Below are positions 31,738 to 61,647 of a stretch of 63,005 nt of DNA, piece by piece; position 1 is the stretch's first letter; every line of letters starts with the position of its first letter. The notes below the pieces were generated by a model. It worked only from the letters and a program-made list of their open reading frames with translations. It had not been told where the DNA came from and did no database searches. The position numbers and the translations under genes are program-made. Origin of the DNA: Thaumarchaeota archaeon 13_1_20CM_2_39_20 (lineage in GTDB: Archaea > Thermoproteota > Nitrososphaeria > Nitrososphaerales > Nitrosopumilaceae); contig MNJS01000042.1 of the NCBI GenBank assembly GCA_001920395.1, forward strand, positions 1 to 63,005, written 5' to 3'.

Positions 31738-32733
31738 ATGAACAGGTTGAAACTACTGATAACAATTTTCCTGCTTGTTGTAATGTTGGCGAACTTTTTT
31801 GCCCAAGCTTATGCATTACAGCTGTACACTGATAAAGAAGTATATTCACCAGGCCAGCCACTTCTAGTTTATGGAAAATCTCTATCCAACGAGTCCTTAA
31901 TAATTAGGCTATTTGCGCCCGACGGTACCATCGCACAATTTAACCAGATTACAGCTGACAGCAGCGGAGATTTTAGTCATATTTTGATCAAGTGGCCTAA
32001 TGCCACTACAAACTATCCTTACGGGACATATTCTGTAGAAGCAATAGCCACAAAGGAAAACGGTGCCTCGAATAAAACCGATGTGAAATTTGCACCATCT
32101 TCGTCAGTTCCGCCAATTCTATTTCAACGAACAGTCATGACTCAGGTTTTTGCGCCTCAAACAGCAGCAGTTAACCAAACATTCAGAGTTTTTGTTCAAG
32201 TTACAAGTGATGGCCTCTTGGTCGAGGGTTCTCCAGAAAAACTCCTTGCCACGTCGCACGTTCATCCTCCTGCAGGCAATGTAGTGATTCTGGGCAATTC
32301 TCTTAAGAAACTTCATACAGGACTTTTCTATACTGATTTTACACCAACTCAAGAGGGAACATATGTTTTCCATATGATTGCATTCAGCCAAGGTACTATT
32401 TCTCATGGTTCCGCAGCGACGCTGGTCCTCAAACAGAATATTGAAGGGATATCAACTCAGATATTGAAATTAAACTCTGTCTTGGATTCGACAACGCAAG
32501 AACTTGATAAGCTAAAGACAGAAATTCAAGGATTTGGAGATGTGTTGGACACTAGTCAGCGATCGATTACACAAGCAAATCAAAACATAAACAAGAGTGT
32601 TACATCGATGTCAGAATCTGTCAAGAACGTTGAGGCTGCCTCTGGTCAATTTAACTCCTTATTCTTGCCTGTTGTAGCTTTGATTGCAGTAATTATAGCA
32701 TTACAAATAACCATCCTTGCTAGGCGACGCTAA
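31738..32733 (+). CDS. Secreted, C-terminally anchored coiled-coil protein
   Basis: This 331-residue protein has a Sec-type signal (LKLLITIFLLVVMLANFFAQAYA; residues 4-26) and beta-rich domains (YTDKEVYSPGQPLLVYG resembles MG2/Ig-like repeats). A probable coiled coil lies at about residues 245-300, with repeated heptads such as ILKLNSVLDSTTQELDKLKT. A final transmembrane helix (LFLPVVALIAVIIALQITIL) ends in ARRR. It lies just 4 bp before the subtilase gene, so both are likely made together. It may be a membrane partner or docking subunit for that protease. Confidence 0.72.
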   Translation: MNRLKLLITIFLLVVMLANFFAQAYALQLYTDKEVYSPGQPLLVYGKSLSNESLIIRLFAPDGTIAQFNQITADSSGDFSHILIKWPNATTNYPYGTYSVEAIATKENGASNKTDVKFAPSSSVPPILFQRTVMTQVFAPQTAAVNQTFRVFVQVTSDGLLVEGSPEKLLATSHVHPPAGNVVILGNSLKKLHTGLFYTDFTPTQEGTYVFHMIAFSQGTISHGSAATLVLKQNIEGISTQILKLNSVLDSTTQELDKLKTEIQGFGDVLDTSQRSITQANQNINKSVTSMSESVKNVEAASGQFNSLFLPVVALIAVIIALQITILARRR

Positions 32734-32737
32734 CTCG

Positions 32738-35700
32738 ATGTTACAGAAAAGATCGTCTGTGACGTCAAAAATAGGACTTGTTTTAGTTTGCATCTTACTT
32801 TTTTCGTTATTTCCAAAATCAGCCACTGGATTTTATGATGTTGATGTTCCACATCAGAATCCGGAACAAAAAATTGAACAATCAACACTGATAAGCTTCC
32901 AACCTACAGTGTACGAGAATCCAATTAAGAGATACATAGTTTTTGGTCCAGGTCCTGTGTCAGACATAACCTCAAAGGCTAATAATGTAATTTATGGAGT
33001 TAATTCTAAACATGGATCCTTTGTTGTGGGTGTTTTCCGACAGAACGAAGTTTCAACTCTGCAATTGCAAGGATACAACATAATCGAAGATTTGCCGCTA
33101 GAGTTCAATTCCATAAAACCTGATGCTTCCCCAAATGAAGTTTCGAGAATTGGCAAAATCCTTGGTTCAGACAAAATCATTCACAAGTATGGATACACAG
33201 GAAATGGCATAAAAATAGGAATTGTAGATACGGGGACTGATTTCTCAAATCCAGACATGAAAGACTCTGTTGCTCGCGATGAAAGAAATATTCCTGTAAT
33301 GATAGATGCAGATGGGCAGGGTCTTGTACTAACAAACGCAACATTTGTAGCAAATATCAATAGCAAAGACGTAATTCAAAATTATACAAAGCCTCTTCCA
33401 AAAAATGCTACATCTTCGGTTTATGTTAACTCGCAAGGAGTATTTCTTAACATAAAAAAAGCAGGCAAGGGAACATCCATTCAAGTCTTTAATTCGTTAT
33501 ATCCTCGAGGAGGCAATTTCGTCTTAAATGGTACTATTTCAGACGACTACAAAATAGGAAAAGATGCAAGACACTTCATCGTATCGAAAAGTGGAATCTA
33601 TCATTTCGGAATGATTTATGAAAGTGCAATGCAGGGTCAATTTTTTAGGTTGCAGCTAGTTCCTGTTCTTGTTGTTGATTCTATAACGCCAGGTCTGTAC
33701 GATACCGTAATTCCAGACATGTCTGATTCATGGAAGGATTTCACTAGATTTGACAGACTGCTAACCATATATGATTTTGATTTCACAGATGAAACTCGTG
33801 TTATCCTAGGAAATGGAAAAGAGTATCTTGTATATGACTCAAATCGTGATGGCAAATCTGATTATAGCGCAGGTATGGTAGGGGCTCACGTTCTTGATGT
33901 ATACGGAACTATTACAAATTCCTCTATGGTTGACAAAAGAATAGGCGCAGTTAATGGGACGCTGCTCCCTCCTCTTGATCCCAAAGGAAACTTCTTTGGG
34001 ATAATGTATGATTTTGCCGGTCATGGTACAGGCACTGCTGCCTCGATAGTGTCATCTGGAAAAGAAGATTATGTAATTTATGGTAATTCTACAAAATATC
34101 ACATAAAAGGCATCGCACCGGAAGCGAAAATAGTCCCAATAAAGGCGTTGTGGCTTGGTGATGCGATATATGGCTGGTTGTGGGCAGCGGGATTTGATCA
34201 AGAAAAGAGTAGCTGGAAATTTACAGGAAAACCTAGAGTCGATATTTTATCTAACAGCTGGGGCATTTCAACTTTTCCTGCACTTCAATCAGTACCTGGA
34301 CTTGACGTTCAATCACTTTTGCTTAGCTCGCTGAATGTTCCAGGTTCATTGGATAAGAATTATCCGGGAATTTTGGTTGTTAGCAGTGCAGGAAACGCAG
34401 GCCCAGGATATGGGACGCTAGGAACTCCAGACGCTGCCCCCTTTGGTCTTACGGTGGGGGCAGTCACTGACAATGTTTACGTAGGCTATGGGCCATTCAA
34501 GAATCAACCAAGATTTGGCAACAGTACCTCTGATTTTGGTGAAGTATCTGGCTTTTCTAGCAAGGGTCCATCTGTAATCGGAGATCCAAAACCCGATTTG
34601 ATGGGAGTTGGTGAATATAGCTTTACTCCAACATCGGTCACGAAATTCAGCAAAAACATGACAGAACCATTTGCACTATTTGGAGGAACTAGCCTTGCAG
34701 CGCCTCTTGTTGCCGGTTCTGCAGCAATCTTGATGCAGAGTTTGAAAGACAAAGGTATCCCCTATGATCCCTTCACAGTCAAAAATATTCTCACGTCAAC
34801 TGCATCAGATATGGGCAATGATCCGTATACGCAAGGATCTGGCCTAGTTAATGTAACAAATGCGGTTAATTTTGTGCTGGGAAATGACGATGTTTTTGTG
34901 GTCTATAACGACGCTTCATATTCTAACATAAAGAAGGTGCTAGACTCACCTCTGAGATCTATGAATTCTTCCTCCGTTGGTTTAAAGCAATTCCAACTCA
35001 CCAACTCTTCACTCCCTCAAACCTCATGGTTTGGAGGGAGAATAAATCCAGGAGATAGGACATCGGCCTCTTTTACAATTGTCAATCCTACAAATCATAC
35101 AATTGATATCCAAATACTTCCACAAAAGCTAGAGTTAAATAAAATTTCACAATATAATGGTACAACGGAGCCTCGTTTACAGGATCCATTGATTCAAAAG
35201 TTGGGTGTATATAGACCAGATTATATTCCGTTAGCAGAAATTAAAAATCACACGAGTTTGATATCATTTTTTGAAAAAACAAAACCTATTCCAGATGATA
35301 CATCATTGATGATCCTTGACCTAACGTTTCCCTTCTCGCAATTCATGAACTCTTCAGCAAAAACGTATGCTGATGACTTGAAGATCTCATCACTGTATCT
35401 TTATGATTGGAATAAGAAAAATAATGATACAAAACCCAGCTATCAAGAACTGTCTCTGATAAACAGAGGAGGCTCATGGGGAACAGTTCAGGAACTTAGA
35501 GTTACTGATCCAAACTCTAAGATCAAACACATTCCTCTGGCTGGAGTTTATCCGGTACCAACTAGGTATTCCTATTGGACAGGTGATACAAAACATAACT
35601 CTACATCATTTGATTATACTGTTACAGCAAGCTACTACAAGAAGGTAAAATGGGATGAGGTATGGTTGGACTCTAACAGCATACAGGTAAAACCTCATAG

Positions 35701-36982
35701 TACAGCTAATTTGCAAGCAACTTTACTAGTGCCATTTGAGAAGAGCGCGGGCTTATACGAGGGTTTCATCGTATTCAAAGGAAAATCACATGCGGTTAAT
35801 GTGCCTGTTTCATACGCTGTAATAAAAAAGCTGCAACCAAAAGATTTGCCGACAGTAATCGAAGGTACTAGTGGCGACACACTTTTTGGAAATGGTTATG
35901 TCGGAGGCGGATTTGATATGTCTAACAGATACAATGCTGGCAATTGGCGTGAGTATTATTTTGATGTCAAAGATAGTACAGTAAACTCTGTTGCGATGAA
36001 CATTTCATGGAAAGATCCTGATACTAATCTTTCAGTTTTTGTTGCAGATCCTCAAGGAAGAATTATACAAACAAATGTTCCACCTGGAGTACTTGGACAG
36101 TTTCAGGGGTGGCCTACAGGAGACTGGCTTGGACCAAGTCCTGTATTTAGTGAAGGTGGAGGTTTTTATCCAATCAAAAACAAAGATGCGACTTCAACAG
36201 TGCTGTATGCGCCGATAAACGAGACTGGCGTATATTCTGTTTTAATTCACACGACATTATTTGGAGGACATTCAGTGGCTGAGCCTGTAACAATTACCAC
36301 CAAATTTTCAACAATTCTTCCAAATGAAGCAGCTCCTCAAATAAAATTAGACCTTCCACAATTTGTAAACAGTACTTACAAGATCATTCCGCAAATAATA
36401 GGAAAGAATATCCAAGATGAAAAATATTATCTGGATTCAGGGCCCCCGCAGATAATAAATCAGACAACGCCAACACCAGCTAAGAATCTTTCTGAGGGAG
36501 AACATTCGCTAAAAGTTGTTGTAACCGATAGCGTTGGGCATACCGTCTCAAGTGAGTACAAATTCATCGTTGATAATACTACTCCAAAAATTATATCAAA
36601 ATCCCTCACAAATGGTTCTGGTGTATCAGGAGTAATTAACCTAGATTTTGATATGGATGAACTAAACCCTGCACAAAAGAACTGGTTCACAGTCAAGCTT
36701 GCAAATCAAACAGTCTATGATAGCAAGACGTTCCAATTTGACACCAGGCTGCTTAAGAATGGGCAGTATACTATTGAAGCCATCGCAAAGGATAGGGCAG
36801 GAAATGTTGGGGTAGAAAAAATAACATTAAATGTTGACAATTCTGGTCTTAATGCAATTTTTACTCAAAATGGAGCAAACCAGAACTTTGTAACTTTGAT
36901 TGAAATAGTAGGAGGACTGGCAATAGCATCTTCAATCTCTGTCATCACTTTTAAAAAATTTAGAATTTCAAAGAGAAGTTAG
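32738..36982 (+). CDS. Large membrane-anchored subtilisin-like (S8) serine protease
   Basis: This protein of about 1,414 residues uses an ATG 4 bp after the preceding stop. The N-terminal signal is VTSKIGLVLVCILLFSLFPKSA. Catalytic residues of the S8 family are present: Asp in GIKIGIVDTGTD (about residue 163), His in DFAGHGTGTAAS (about 427) and Ser in GGTSLAAPLVAGSAA (about 649); the oxyanion Asn sits in SSAGNAGPG. The Asp-His spacing of about 265 residues is far wider than usual, indicating a large inserted domain. The C-terminal half has beta-sandwich domains, then a hydrophobic helix and KKFRISKRS. It probably matures or degrades surface proteins outside the cell. Confidence 0.88.
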   Translation: MLQKRSSVTSKIGLVLVCILLFSLFPKSATGFYDVDVPHQNPEQKIEQSTLISFQPTVYENPIKRYIVFGPGPVSDITSKANNVIYGVNSKHGSFVVGVFRQNEVSTLQLQGYNIIEDLPLEFNSIKPDASPNEVSRIGKILGSDKIIHKYGYTGNGIKIGIVDTGTDFSNPDMKDSVARDERNIPVMIDADGQGLVLTNATFVANINSKDVIQNYTKPLPKNATSSVYVNSQGVFLNIKKAGKGTSIQVFNSLYPRGGNFVLNGTISDDYKIGKDARHFIVSKSGIYHFGMIYESAMQGQFFRLQLVPVLVVDSITPGLYDTVIPDMSDSWKDFTRFDRLLTIYDFDFTDETRVILGNGKEYLVYDSNRDGKSDYSAGMVGAHVLDVYGTITNSSMVDKRIGAVNGTLLPPLDPKGNFFGIMYDFAGHGTGTAASIVSSGKEDYVIYGNSTKYHIKGIAPEAKIVPIKALWLGDAIYGWLWAAGFDQEKSSWKFTGKPRVDILSNSWGISTFPALQSVPGLDVQSLLLSSLNVPGSLDKNYPGILVVSSAGNAGPGYGTLGTPDAAPFGLTVGAVTDNVYVGYGPFKNQPRFGNSTSDFGEVSGFSSKGPSVIGDPKPDLMGVGEYSFTPTSVTKFSKNMTEPFALFGGTSLAAPLVAGSAAILMQSLKDKGIPYDPFTVKNILTSTASDMGNDPYTQGSGLVNVTNAVNFVLGNDDVFVVYNDASYSNIKKVLDSPLRSMNSSSVGLKQFQLTNSSLPQTSWFGGRINPGDRTSASFTIVNPTNHTIDIQILPQKLELNKISQYNGTTEPRLQDPLIQKLGVYRPDYIPLAEIKNHTSLISFFEKTKPIPDDTSLMILDLTFPFSQFMNSSAKTYADDLKISSLYLYDWNKKNNDTKPSYQELSLINRGGSWGTVQELRVTDPNSKIKHIPLAGVYPVPTRYSYWTGDTKHNSTSFDYTVTASYYKKVKWDEVWLDSNSIQVKPHSTANLQATLLVPFEKSAGLYEGFIVFKGKSHAVNVPVSYAVIKKLQPKDLPTVIEGTSGDTLFGNGYVGGGFDMSNRYNAGNWREYYFDVKDSTVNSVAMNISWKDPDTNLSVFVADPQGRIIQTNVPPGVLGQFQGWPTGDWLGPSPVFSEGGGFYPIKNKDATSTVLYAPINETGVYSVLIHTTLFGGHSVAEPVTITTKFSTILPNEAAPQIKLDLPQFVNSTYKIIPQIIGKNIQDEKYYLDSGPPQIINQTTPTPAKNLSEGEHSLKVVVTDSVGHTVSSEYKFIVDNTTPKIISKSLTNGSGVSGVINLDFDMDELNPAQKNWFTVKLANQTVYDSKTFQFDTRLLKNGQYTIEAIAKDRAGNVGVEKITLNVDNSGLNAIFTQNGANQNFVTLIEIVGGLAIASSISVITFKKFRISKRS

Positions 36983-59718: not shown

Positions 59719-61647
59719 CTACCCGATTATGGTCGGCTGTTGCTGCGTAATACAGTGAATTGCACCCATTCCATATACCAAATCAGTGCAATCAATCCCA
59801 ATAATCTCCCTGCTTGGAAATTGACTATGAATAATTCTTATTGCTAGACTGTCGTTCTTATGCATGTACGTGGGAACTAAAACCACCTTGTTGGCAACAT
59901 AGAAGTTAAGGTAACTTGCCGGCAATCTTGTTTTCTTACCTCTGACACGCATACTAATCGCAGGAGGCATTGGCATTTTTATAACTTTTAATTTCTTTCC
60001 ATCCTGGTCCGTTGATTGGTGAAGAATCTCATAGTTCTCTTTTAATACAGAATGATTCTCGTCAGCCTCATCTTCTTCATAGGCACACACAACTGTTCTT
60101 GGACCAACAAAACGAGCCAAATTATCAATATGCCCATCGGTATCATCTCCTACTACACCGGATTTTAGCCAGATGATGTGATTTATTCCAAAATAGTCCA
60201 TCAAAAATTTCTCAACTTCAGCTTTTGAAAGATGTGGATTCCTGTTACTGCTGAGCAAGCACTGTGTGGTGGTGAGGACCGTACCTTTCCCATTGACATC
60301 AACAGAACCGCCTTCCAAGACTATGCCGGGCCTGAAATTATTCAACTGCAACCTATTACTTATGACGTGAGGAACTTGAGTGTCTTTTGCAAGATCTTTG
60401 TATTTTCCAGACCAAGCATTGAATATCCAATGTACGAAAGATATCTGCTTTTTTTCCCTGTTAGTTACAAAAACTGGGCCGTAGTCTCTAAACCAAACAT
60501 CCGCATAATCCCACACGTAAAAGTTAATTCTCTGGAGATCTACGCCTCTTTGCTCCAAGAGTCTTGTCACCGTTGATCTCATATTCGAATCTTTGACGAA
60601 AAGATTTACGTACTCATTTTTGTGCAGCACATTAATCATCTTCAGGTATGCACTTTCAACTTTTTTGACTCTACTTGGAAACGTAACGGGATCATGCGGC
60701 CACGCTAGCCAAGTCGCATCATGTTTTTCCCATTCCGCTGGCATTGAGTATCCAAGGCTTTTAGGCGTCTCGTTCAAAATACGCGAATTGATCAAACCAT
60801 AAGTTGAAGGAAGCCGATTCCTGAGAAACCCCCACCCATCTTGTATCCTTTTGTTCTGGGAAATGTCAAGCTCCGCGACAACTACTTCTTCATCTTCTTG
60901 GCTTGCCCTTTTGATCATTCTTCCGAATGCATCACAGACAAACGAAGCTCCCCAAAATCGTATCTCCCCTTCGGTACCCACGCGGTTAACCGAGGCAACA
61001 TGAATGCCATTCGCTATGGCATGAGAACGTTGAATATTTTCCCAAGAGTAGTGCCAGTCTTCTTGTGATAAAGGATCGCCTTCAAGATAGCCAATTGCGG
61101 AGGGATAAAAGATAAGATCTACTCCCTGTAAAGCCAATGTTCTTGCAGCTTCAGGAAACCATTGATCATAGCAAATAAGCACACCAAAACACAGATGCGG
61201 TGTTCTAAATATCTGATATCCCAAGTCTCCTTCTTGGAAGTAGCTTTTCTCGTAAAAGAAGGGGTCGTGAGGGATATGCATTTTACGGTAACTTCCGATG
61301 ATCTTTCCATCTGTATCAATTACTACTGCTGTGTTGTAATGTTTACCAGAGTCTACTTCGAATATGGGTGCAATGATTACCACGTTCAACTCTCTGGCTA
61401 GATCTGACAATGCTATTGTGGTTTCTCCCGGGATGGTCTCAGCCAACTGGGTAACATCTTTTCTTTCGTCAGTTGGAAAATACTTGGTTCTGTATAATTC
61501 CTGCAAACAAATGATTTGTGCGCCTTTTTTAGCTGCATCCCGTATCTTGGAAATAGTATTTTCCATGTTGCGGTTAATATCATCGGAAACGCGAGTTTGA
61601 ATTAGTCCTATAATAACTGTGTTCTTTTTTACCATCATCATGGGCAC
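59719..61647 (-). CDS. Fused N-carbamoylputrescine amidase (AguB-like) and agmatine deiminase (AguA-like)
   Basis: Residues 8-285 form a carbon-nitrogen hydrolase with the catalytic triad Glu50 (CLQEL), Lys122 (YRKMH) and Cys159 (LICYDQWFPEAA), as in AguB. Residues 300-642 form the agmatine deiminase fold: AEWEKHDATWLAWPHDP, VWFRDYGPVFV, LEGGSVDV, DDTDGHIDNLARF with His506, and the C-terminal GMGAIHCITQQQP with nucleophile Cys632. Together they would convert agmatine to N-carbamoylputrescine and then to putrescine, CO2 and ammonia in one chain. Bacteria and plants use separate proteins. The gene stands alone on the minus strand. Confidence 0.88.
   Translation of the reverse strand: MPMMMVKKNTVIIGLIQTRVSDDINRNMENTISKIRDAAKKGAQIICLQELYRTKYFPTDERKDVTQLAETIPGETTIALSDLARELNVVIIAPIFEVDSGKHYNTAVVIDTDGKIIGSYRKMHIPHDPFFYEKSYFQEGDLGYQIFRTPHLCFGVLICYDQWFPEAARTLALQGVDLIFYPSAIGYLEGDPLSQEDWHYSWENIQRSHAIANGIHVASVNRVGTEGEIRFWGASFVCDAFGRMIKRASQEDEEVVVAELDISQNKRIQDGWGFLRNRLPSTYGLINSRILNETPKSLGYSMPAEWEKHDATWLAWPHDPVTFPSRVKKVESAYLKMINVLHKNEYVNLFVKDSNMRSTVTRLLEQRGVDLQRINFYVWDYADVWFRDYGPVFVTNREKKQISFVHWIFNAWSGKYKDLAKDTQVPHVISNRLQLNNFRPGIVLEGGSVDVNGKGTVLTTTQCLLSSNRNPHLSKAEVEKFLMDYFGINHIIWLKSGVVGDDTDGHIDNLARFVGPRTVVCAYEEDEADENHSVLKENYEILHQSTDQDGKKLKVIKMPMPPAISMRVRGKKTRLPASYLNFYVANKVVLVPTYMHKNDSLAIRIIHSQFPSREIIGIDCTDLVYGMGAIHCITQQQPTIIG

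Follow-up and report, generated by a model that had tools for sequence, protein, structure and literature searches.

A single reading frame encodes an amidase and a deiminase domain

We analysed a stretch of 63,005 nucleotides (the window; contig MNJS01000042.1) from a Thaumarchaeota MAG and found on its reverse strand one gene in which an AguB-like and an AguA-like domain follow each other in the same frame. Its features are as follows.

59719..61647, reverse strand: aguBA fusion gene, 642 aa, GTG start; full-length one-frame homologues at loci L002, L003, L004 and L020
60790..61620, reverse strand (residues ~10-286): AguB-like domain, putative nitrilase-superfamily N-carbamoylputrescine amidase; CN_hydrolase and 5h8i matches
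60754..60789, reverse strand (residues 287-298): linker, NSRILNETPKSL; disordered at 287-290 in the structure model
59728..60759, reverse strand (residues ~297-640): AguA-like domain, putative agmatine deiminase of the PPAD family; PAD_porph, 1xkn and 2jer matches

The 642 codons form one frame with two Pfam domains, CN_hydrolase at residues 15-264 (3.8e-61, far over the cut-off) and PAD_porph (PF04371) at residues 302-638 (1.4e-118; 396 bits against a cut-off of 25), and translation could alternatively begin at one of the in-frame ATGs at codons 3-5. An earlier note on this DNA had proposed an amidase-deiminase fusion in a single chain, which is borne out, and had named a stop or frameshift between residues 285 and 300 as evidence to the contrary; we looked for a hidden stop or frameshift at this junction and found none, the frame being continuous. 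The linker of about 12 residues is in frame and of the same length in the four closest Thaumarchaeota copies, and among all fused proteins it varies from about 12 to more than 30 residues.

A fusion made or misplaced by sequencing error, misassembly or contamination would be compatible with a host MAG that is 61% complete and in 61 contigs, with the G+C content of the gene (41.7%, vs 37.1% for the window), and with a copy on a contig binned as 'Acidobacteria', described below, which implies misbinning of such contigs or transfer. However, the same in-frame fusion, linker included, is found at 73-82% identity in four other Thaumarchaeota MAGs (L002, L003, L004, L020), and dN/dS between pairs of the five Thaumarchaeota copies, where computable, is 0.05-0.14 for AguB, 0.07-0.18 for AguA and 0.05-0.29 for residues 285-300 (16 codons only), several pairs being saturated at synonymous sites. 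Both halves are under purifying selection. Since four other MAGs share the fusion and dN/dS is below 0.3, it is not an assembly error, and since two of these carriers are near-complete genomes of the same genus, contamination of the MAG is also unlikely and was discarded; in addition, the contig holds housekeeping genes and three tRNAs. An artefact is thus very improbable, and the AguB-AguA fusion is a real, conserved two-domain gene.

Both halves keep the catalytic residues of their families

By sequence, the solved structures nearest to the AguB half are 5h8i, the N-carbamoylputrescine amidohydrolase of Medicago (MtCPA; 1.8e-62), and 6mg6, a carbon-nitrogen hydrolase of Helicobacter; in Foldseek this half matches 5h8i with TMt 0.88 at 38% identity, and N-carbamoylputrescine amidohydrolase structures in general with TMt of about 0.88-0.92. 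The catalytic triad of MtCPA is Glu48, Lys121 and Cys158, assisted by Glu132, and Trp277 from the dimer mate lines the pocket (PMC4812014). Counted by hand on the 5h8i sequence alignment, these five residues correspond to E50, K122, C159, E133 and W272, the last sitting in the stretch that MtCPA swaps between dimer mates, and the Ser of the C158S mutant structure 5h8k stands opposite C159. E50, K122, C159, E133, W163 and W272 are each identical in 44/44 aligned AguB rows. This half has the nitrilase fold, the Glu-Lys-Cys triad and the second Glu.

The AguA half is closest to the Chlorobium structure 1xkn (3.2e-101, 45% identity, TMt 0.91), followed among solved relatives by the agmatine deiminases 2jer (9.9e-66), 6nib, 2ewo and 1vkp, and it matches 2jer, 6nic and 3h7c with TMt 0.88-0.89 in Foldseek, giving it the PAD_porph family by both fold and profile. 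On alignment, D96, E157, H218, D220 and C357 of the Enterococcus faecalis AgDI correspond to D388, E445, H506, D508 and C632; the first four are invariant in 44/44 AguA rows and C632 in the 43/43 rows that have a residue there, and both the catalytic Cys-His-Asp and the guanidinium-binding acids are in place. The five catalytic residues named in the earlier note (E50, K122, C159, H506 and C632) are correctly numbered, and all are invariant in the rows that cover them. In the plant agmatine deiminase AIH, D89, W91, W125 and D220 either touch the tail of agmatine or form the wall of its channel (PMC6447857), and their counterparts in the fusion (D383, W385, W412 and D502, by comparison with Medicago MtAIH) are conserved in 16/16 fused proteins.

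The superfamily assignments of both halves are firm. Their scores nevertheless lie below the curated NCBIfam equivalog cut-offs, with 311.1 vs 381.8 bits for AguA (TIGR03380) and 274.5 vs 410.25 bits for AguB (TIGR03381). Agmatine and N-carbamoylputrescine are therefore well-argued candidate substrates, well supported by the residues and by the joining of two successive steps, rather than settled ones. Alternatively, the two domains might act on another, related guanidino compound and on the carbamoyl product formed from it, as might be suggested by the two missed cut-offs, by 1xkn, the closest solved deiminase, having no tested substrate in its title, and by the lack of conservation of Glu187, the specificity residue of MtCPA, which binds the free amine at the pocket entrance and falls in a variable column occupied by L188 here, with E189 beside it. 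Yet the Glu187 mismatch is not decisive, because Bacteroidales AguB-like homologues (L021) also lack a Glu in this column and the NCPAH of Bacteroides thetaiotaomicron has been demonstrated to be active (PMC10135574). Moreover, the tail-amine residues of agmatine deiminases are kept and two joined domains for consecutive steps predict one shared intermediate, so we consider the related substrates unlikely. The fusion protein is very probably bifunctional.

A probable flexible tether between the halves

We built an AlphaFold2 model of the monomer on a 72-row alignment of the window and locus proteins, which reached a mean pLDDT of 92.7 and a pTM of 0.68; pLDDT drops under 50 at residues 1-5 and 287-290. 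In Foldseek the halves match separately, not one of the 50 best matches covering both, and our reading of the model is that of two rigid domains on a flexible tether. The two domains are modelled with confidence, but with the disordered junction and the pTM of 0.68 their position relative to each other is not fixed and no tunnel is visible. The earlier suggestion that N-carbamoylputrescine is channelled directly is therefore not supported.

The MtCPA octamer has a central void of 20 Å, and on its inner side the dimer mates exchange their C-terminal segments 275-301 (PMC4812014). In the fusion, the tail matching this segment runs into a 350-residue domain, so that the AguA domain is carried where MtCPA has its inner side; we infer that an octamer of the MtCPA type, whose void would be too small for the AguA domain, is improbable and that a dimer or another assembly would be formed instead. 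There is also a case for a true substrate channel, with the active sites of AguA and AguB facing each other in a fixed complex: the tether places both sites on one chain and, since the AguB tail is swapped between dimer mates in MtCPA, AguA could cover the active site of the partner. Against such a complex speak the disorder of the linker and the pTM of 0.68 in the model, the variation in linker length among fused proteins, and the fact that most relatives run the same pathway with separate proteins, and we find a fixed channel quite improbable.

Fused and split forms across archaea

The survey of the fusion across archaea that the earlier note had proposed was carried out by a contig search with the fusion as query, which returned 80 loci whose frames were then read, and it revealed carriers in Thaumarchaeota, Bathyarchaeia, Methanothrix and Micrarchaeota. 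In addition to the four Thaumarchaeota MAGs and a further Thaumarchaeota locus cut by the contig end (L012), one-frame fusions are present at two Micrarchaeota loci (L005, L011), in one Bathyarchaeota MAG (L006) and in four Methanothrix or Methanosarcinales MAGs (L009, L010, L013, L014). The remaining loci with both parts are split genes, and in all of them aguB precedes aguA on the same strand (70/70, including at least five repeat copies of the same contigs), usually with the aguB stop lying 20-70 nt before the codon that matches residue 302; this proportion is no estimate for aguA and aguB genes at large, because a fusion query favours adjacent pairs. As the note had stated, AguA and AguB are separate in nearly all sampled bacteria. 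The sole exception is a truncated copy nested in an archaeal clade: a contig of an 'Acidobacteria' MAG (L027, JAHFTY010000098.1) carries a 5'-truncated fusion, 61% identical, reflecting either transfer or misbinning.

Within the genus of the window, the fusion was found in the genomes of 3/37 species (G000, which is that of the window, G154 and G177), or 2/19 when near-complete genomes of low contamination are considered. In a sample of the order (151 genomes), the AguA-level matches beyond the window's genome are split genes or fragments from other families, with none in the other sampled members of the window's own family. In a sample of the phylum (398 genomes), seven genomes gave matches with E <1e-150, namely that of the window and six in family f18, four of which have open fusions and two a single in-frame stop. 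Across family f18 the pair is present in 33/91 genomes, as 7 open fusions, 5 in-frame pairs with one stop and 21 otherwise split pairs. In those five genomes (G384, G492, G539, G540, G565) aguB and aguA share a frame and are parted by one stop codon only (TGA in 4, TAA in 1), and these pairs stand beside fully fused relatives.

Origin of the fusion

In a concatenated AguB and AguA tree of 80 rows (quick search, SH-aLRT support only) we counted at least six changes between the fused and split states, five of them forced by well-supported branches, and an AU test rejected a single clade of all 16 fused rows (p-AU 5.17e-49), ruling out one ancient fusion that forms a single clade. The tree and the AU test support several fusions or fissions across these sequences; one fusion followed by several splits is a possible history. 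In the closest relatives with separate genes, aguB lies directly before aguA, so that fusing the two would take the disappearance of a single stop codon.

The Thaumarchaeota fusions, five in number, group together in one clade (SH-aLRT 100), to which L027 (97) and the Micrarchaeota fusions (99) attach, and the unfused pairs of other Nitrososphaerota fall in a separate clade. Since other members of the order carry this different, unfused version, vertical inheritance within Nitrososphaerota was rejected, and horizontal acquisition of the fusion by the genus of the window is likely and the simplest reading of the tree.

None of the genes flanking the fusion in the window is common to other fusion carriers. 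At Rfam gathering thresholds the window contains only the three tRNAs and no RNA regulator near the gene. A search of viral contigs with short exact peptide patterns, which has low sensitivity, returned no relative, and carriage by phage was set aside on this result. Elsewhere in the window (32717-36982, forward strand) lies a gene for a subtilase-family protein of 1421 aa that has Ig-like matches in its C-terminal part and is a probable protease, either secreted or located at the cell surface.

Relation to described systems

The closest described counterpart is the bacterial aguBA operon of the Pseudomonas type, which has the same domain families, the same order of aguB then aguA, the same catalytic residues and the same expected two-step reaction yielding two NH3 and one CO2, but consists of two genes and two proteins, whereas here there is one polypeptide with both halves below the NCBIfam cut-offs. 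The plant enzymes MtAIH (6nib/6nic), AtAIH (1vkp/3h7k) and MtCPA (5h8i-5h8l) share the folds (TMt 0.87-0.91) and the catalytic sets, and the tail-amine residues of AIH are kept in the fusion; unlike it, AIH and CPA are separate proteins, and the positions of MtCPA Glu187 and MtAIH Gly361 differ (L188 and M627). The Chlorobium tepidum protein 1xkn, a putative peptidyl-arginine deiminase, has a single domain, unlike the fusion. Ammonia-oxidising archaea (AOA) are described as converting agmatine to putrescine with agmatinase (SpeB), which therefore serves the same end in the same organisms but is an unrelated metal enzyme that releases urea, not ammonia (PMC10753782, PMC8573960): a survey of 70 nitrifiers reported arginine decarboxylase and agmatinase from every AOA, and aguAB from a subset of the bacterial nitrifiers only (PMC10753782), and Nitrosocosmicus has the same arginine decarboxylase and agmatinase route (PMC8573960). 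A fusobacterial fusion of a decarboxylase with an agmatinase homologue (PMC8503589) is also a polyamine-enzyme fusion, but of other enzymes and in another lineage.

Our literature search, which covered few subscription papers and so does not prove absence, turned up no account of an AguB-AguA fusion, and the architecture may well be listed in domain databases. The fusion is a variant of a known pathway, not a new kind of system; what it adds is a one-protein form of a two-enzyme pathway that appears to arise repeatedly by the loss of a single stop codon. As fused and unfused versions exist side by side in one archaeal family, they offer a natural test of what fusion buys this enzyme pair.

Agmatine metabolism of the host and proposed function

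The genome of the window encodes archaeal AmoA (contig C60), confirming that the host is an ammonia oxidiser. The earlier note had found the release of ammonia notable for this reason; the part concerning the host stands, but the fusion is not a feature of ammonia oxidisers as such, being carried also by archaea that do not oxidise ammonia and by few species of the genus. Archaeal AmoA and a pyruvoyl arginine decarboxylase (PF01862) were both found in 12/12 genomes of the genus that were tested, that of the window included, and AdoMetDC (PF02675) in 0/12, so an arginine decarboxylase derived from AdoMetDC was rejected in favour of the pyruvoyl enzyme. Most genomes of the genus have two or three arginase-family genes. 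A canonical agmatinase (TIGR01230, 226 bits) is completely missing from just one of the 19 near-complete genomes of low contamination, G154; G168 has it as a fragment and G177 keeps it. Both G154 and G177 also keep a second arginase-family type that barely passes the agmatinase model (in G154, 177.5 vs 174.3 bits). Urease is present in 7/37 genomes of the genus and absent from the fusion carriers G154 (99% complete) and G177 (97%), and most urease-free members manage without the fusion. Neither arginase-family genes nor urease were found in the window's genome, absences that say little at 61% completeness.

We propose, with a probability of about 0.72, that the gene encodes a bifunctional enzyme converting agmatine via N-carbamoylputrescine to putrescine on one flexible chain, which arose by stop loss and was probably transferred horizontally. 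Agmatine would be supplied by the cell's own pyruvoyl-dependent arginine decarboxylase; the C-terminal AguA domain would convert it to N-carbamoylputrescine and NH3, with C632 as nucleophile together with H506, D388, E445 and D508, and the N-terminal AguB domain would then release putrescine, NH3 and CO2 via E50, K122 and C159. The ammonia release foreseen in the earlier note agrees with this two-step chemistry, which would give two NH3 and one CO2 per agmatine. The benefit would lie in 1:1 co-expression and in the closeness of the active sites, with no built-in tunnel. The stop codon between adjacent, co-oriented aguB and aguA would have been lost before the gene was, most likely, transferred to a few species of an ammonia-oxidising genus, where it would add to agmatinase or, in one species, may replace it. 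Nitrogen would then leave as ammonia and not as urea, which species without urease could not use. The pathway is plausible because the genome has amoA and arginine decarboxylase and because two near-complete carriers have no urease, one of them also lacking the canonical agmatinase, although both halves stay below the equivalog cut-offs. Which substrates are used, in which direction the pathway runs, where the gene came from and what the cell gains are what we infer from these comparisons.

Alternatively, the fusion could mainly degrade imported agmatine as a source of nitrogen and energy, with two NH3 from each molecule, rather than make putrescine. The patchy, accessory distribution in 3/37 species, the lack of conserved neighbours in other carriers, as for a stand-alone gene, and the lack of urease in the two near-complete carriers would all fit such a role, and genes of this pathway serve agmatine use in Pseudomonas and Enterococcus. 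On the other hand, members of the genus already produce agmatine themselves through arginine decarboxylase, we identified no transporter for agmatine beside the gene, and a G154 without canonical agmatinase fits a biosynthetic role; we therefore regard degradation as rather unlikely and favour the synthesis of putrescine.

The fusion thus points to a second putrescine route in ammonia oxidisers, one that would yield ammonia rather than urea. We hypothesise, tentatively and with considerable doubt, that in a few urease-free AOA the horizontally acquired fusion takes over putrescine synthesis from agmatinase; if true, the nitrogen of agmatine would return as two ammonia molecules that the cell could oxidise or assimilate, and would no longer be lost as urea. 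In chemical terms the argument about ammonia is sound, and the absence of urease adds to its interest. Replacement of agmatinase is nevertheless not general, because G154 keeps the second arginase-family protein and G177 the canonical agmatinase.

In the urease-bearing members of the genus we observed a different arrangement. The urease alpha gene and a third arginase-family protein of ~378 aa occur in the same 7/37 genomes (G152, G158, G159, G165, G166, G175, G179), ~8 kb apart on one contig in six of the seven, and among solved structures the G152 copy has its best relatives in the guanidinobutyrases 3nio and 7esr, which suggests an island leading from a guanidino compound through urea to ammonia. 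Three of these genomes have a second copy of the pyruvoyl arginine decarboxylase, within ~7 kb of urease on the same contig in G159 and G179 and ~112 kb away in G152.
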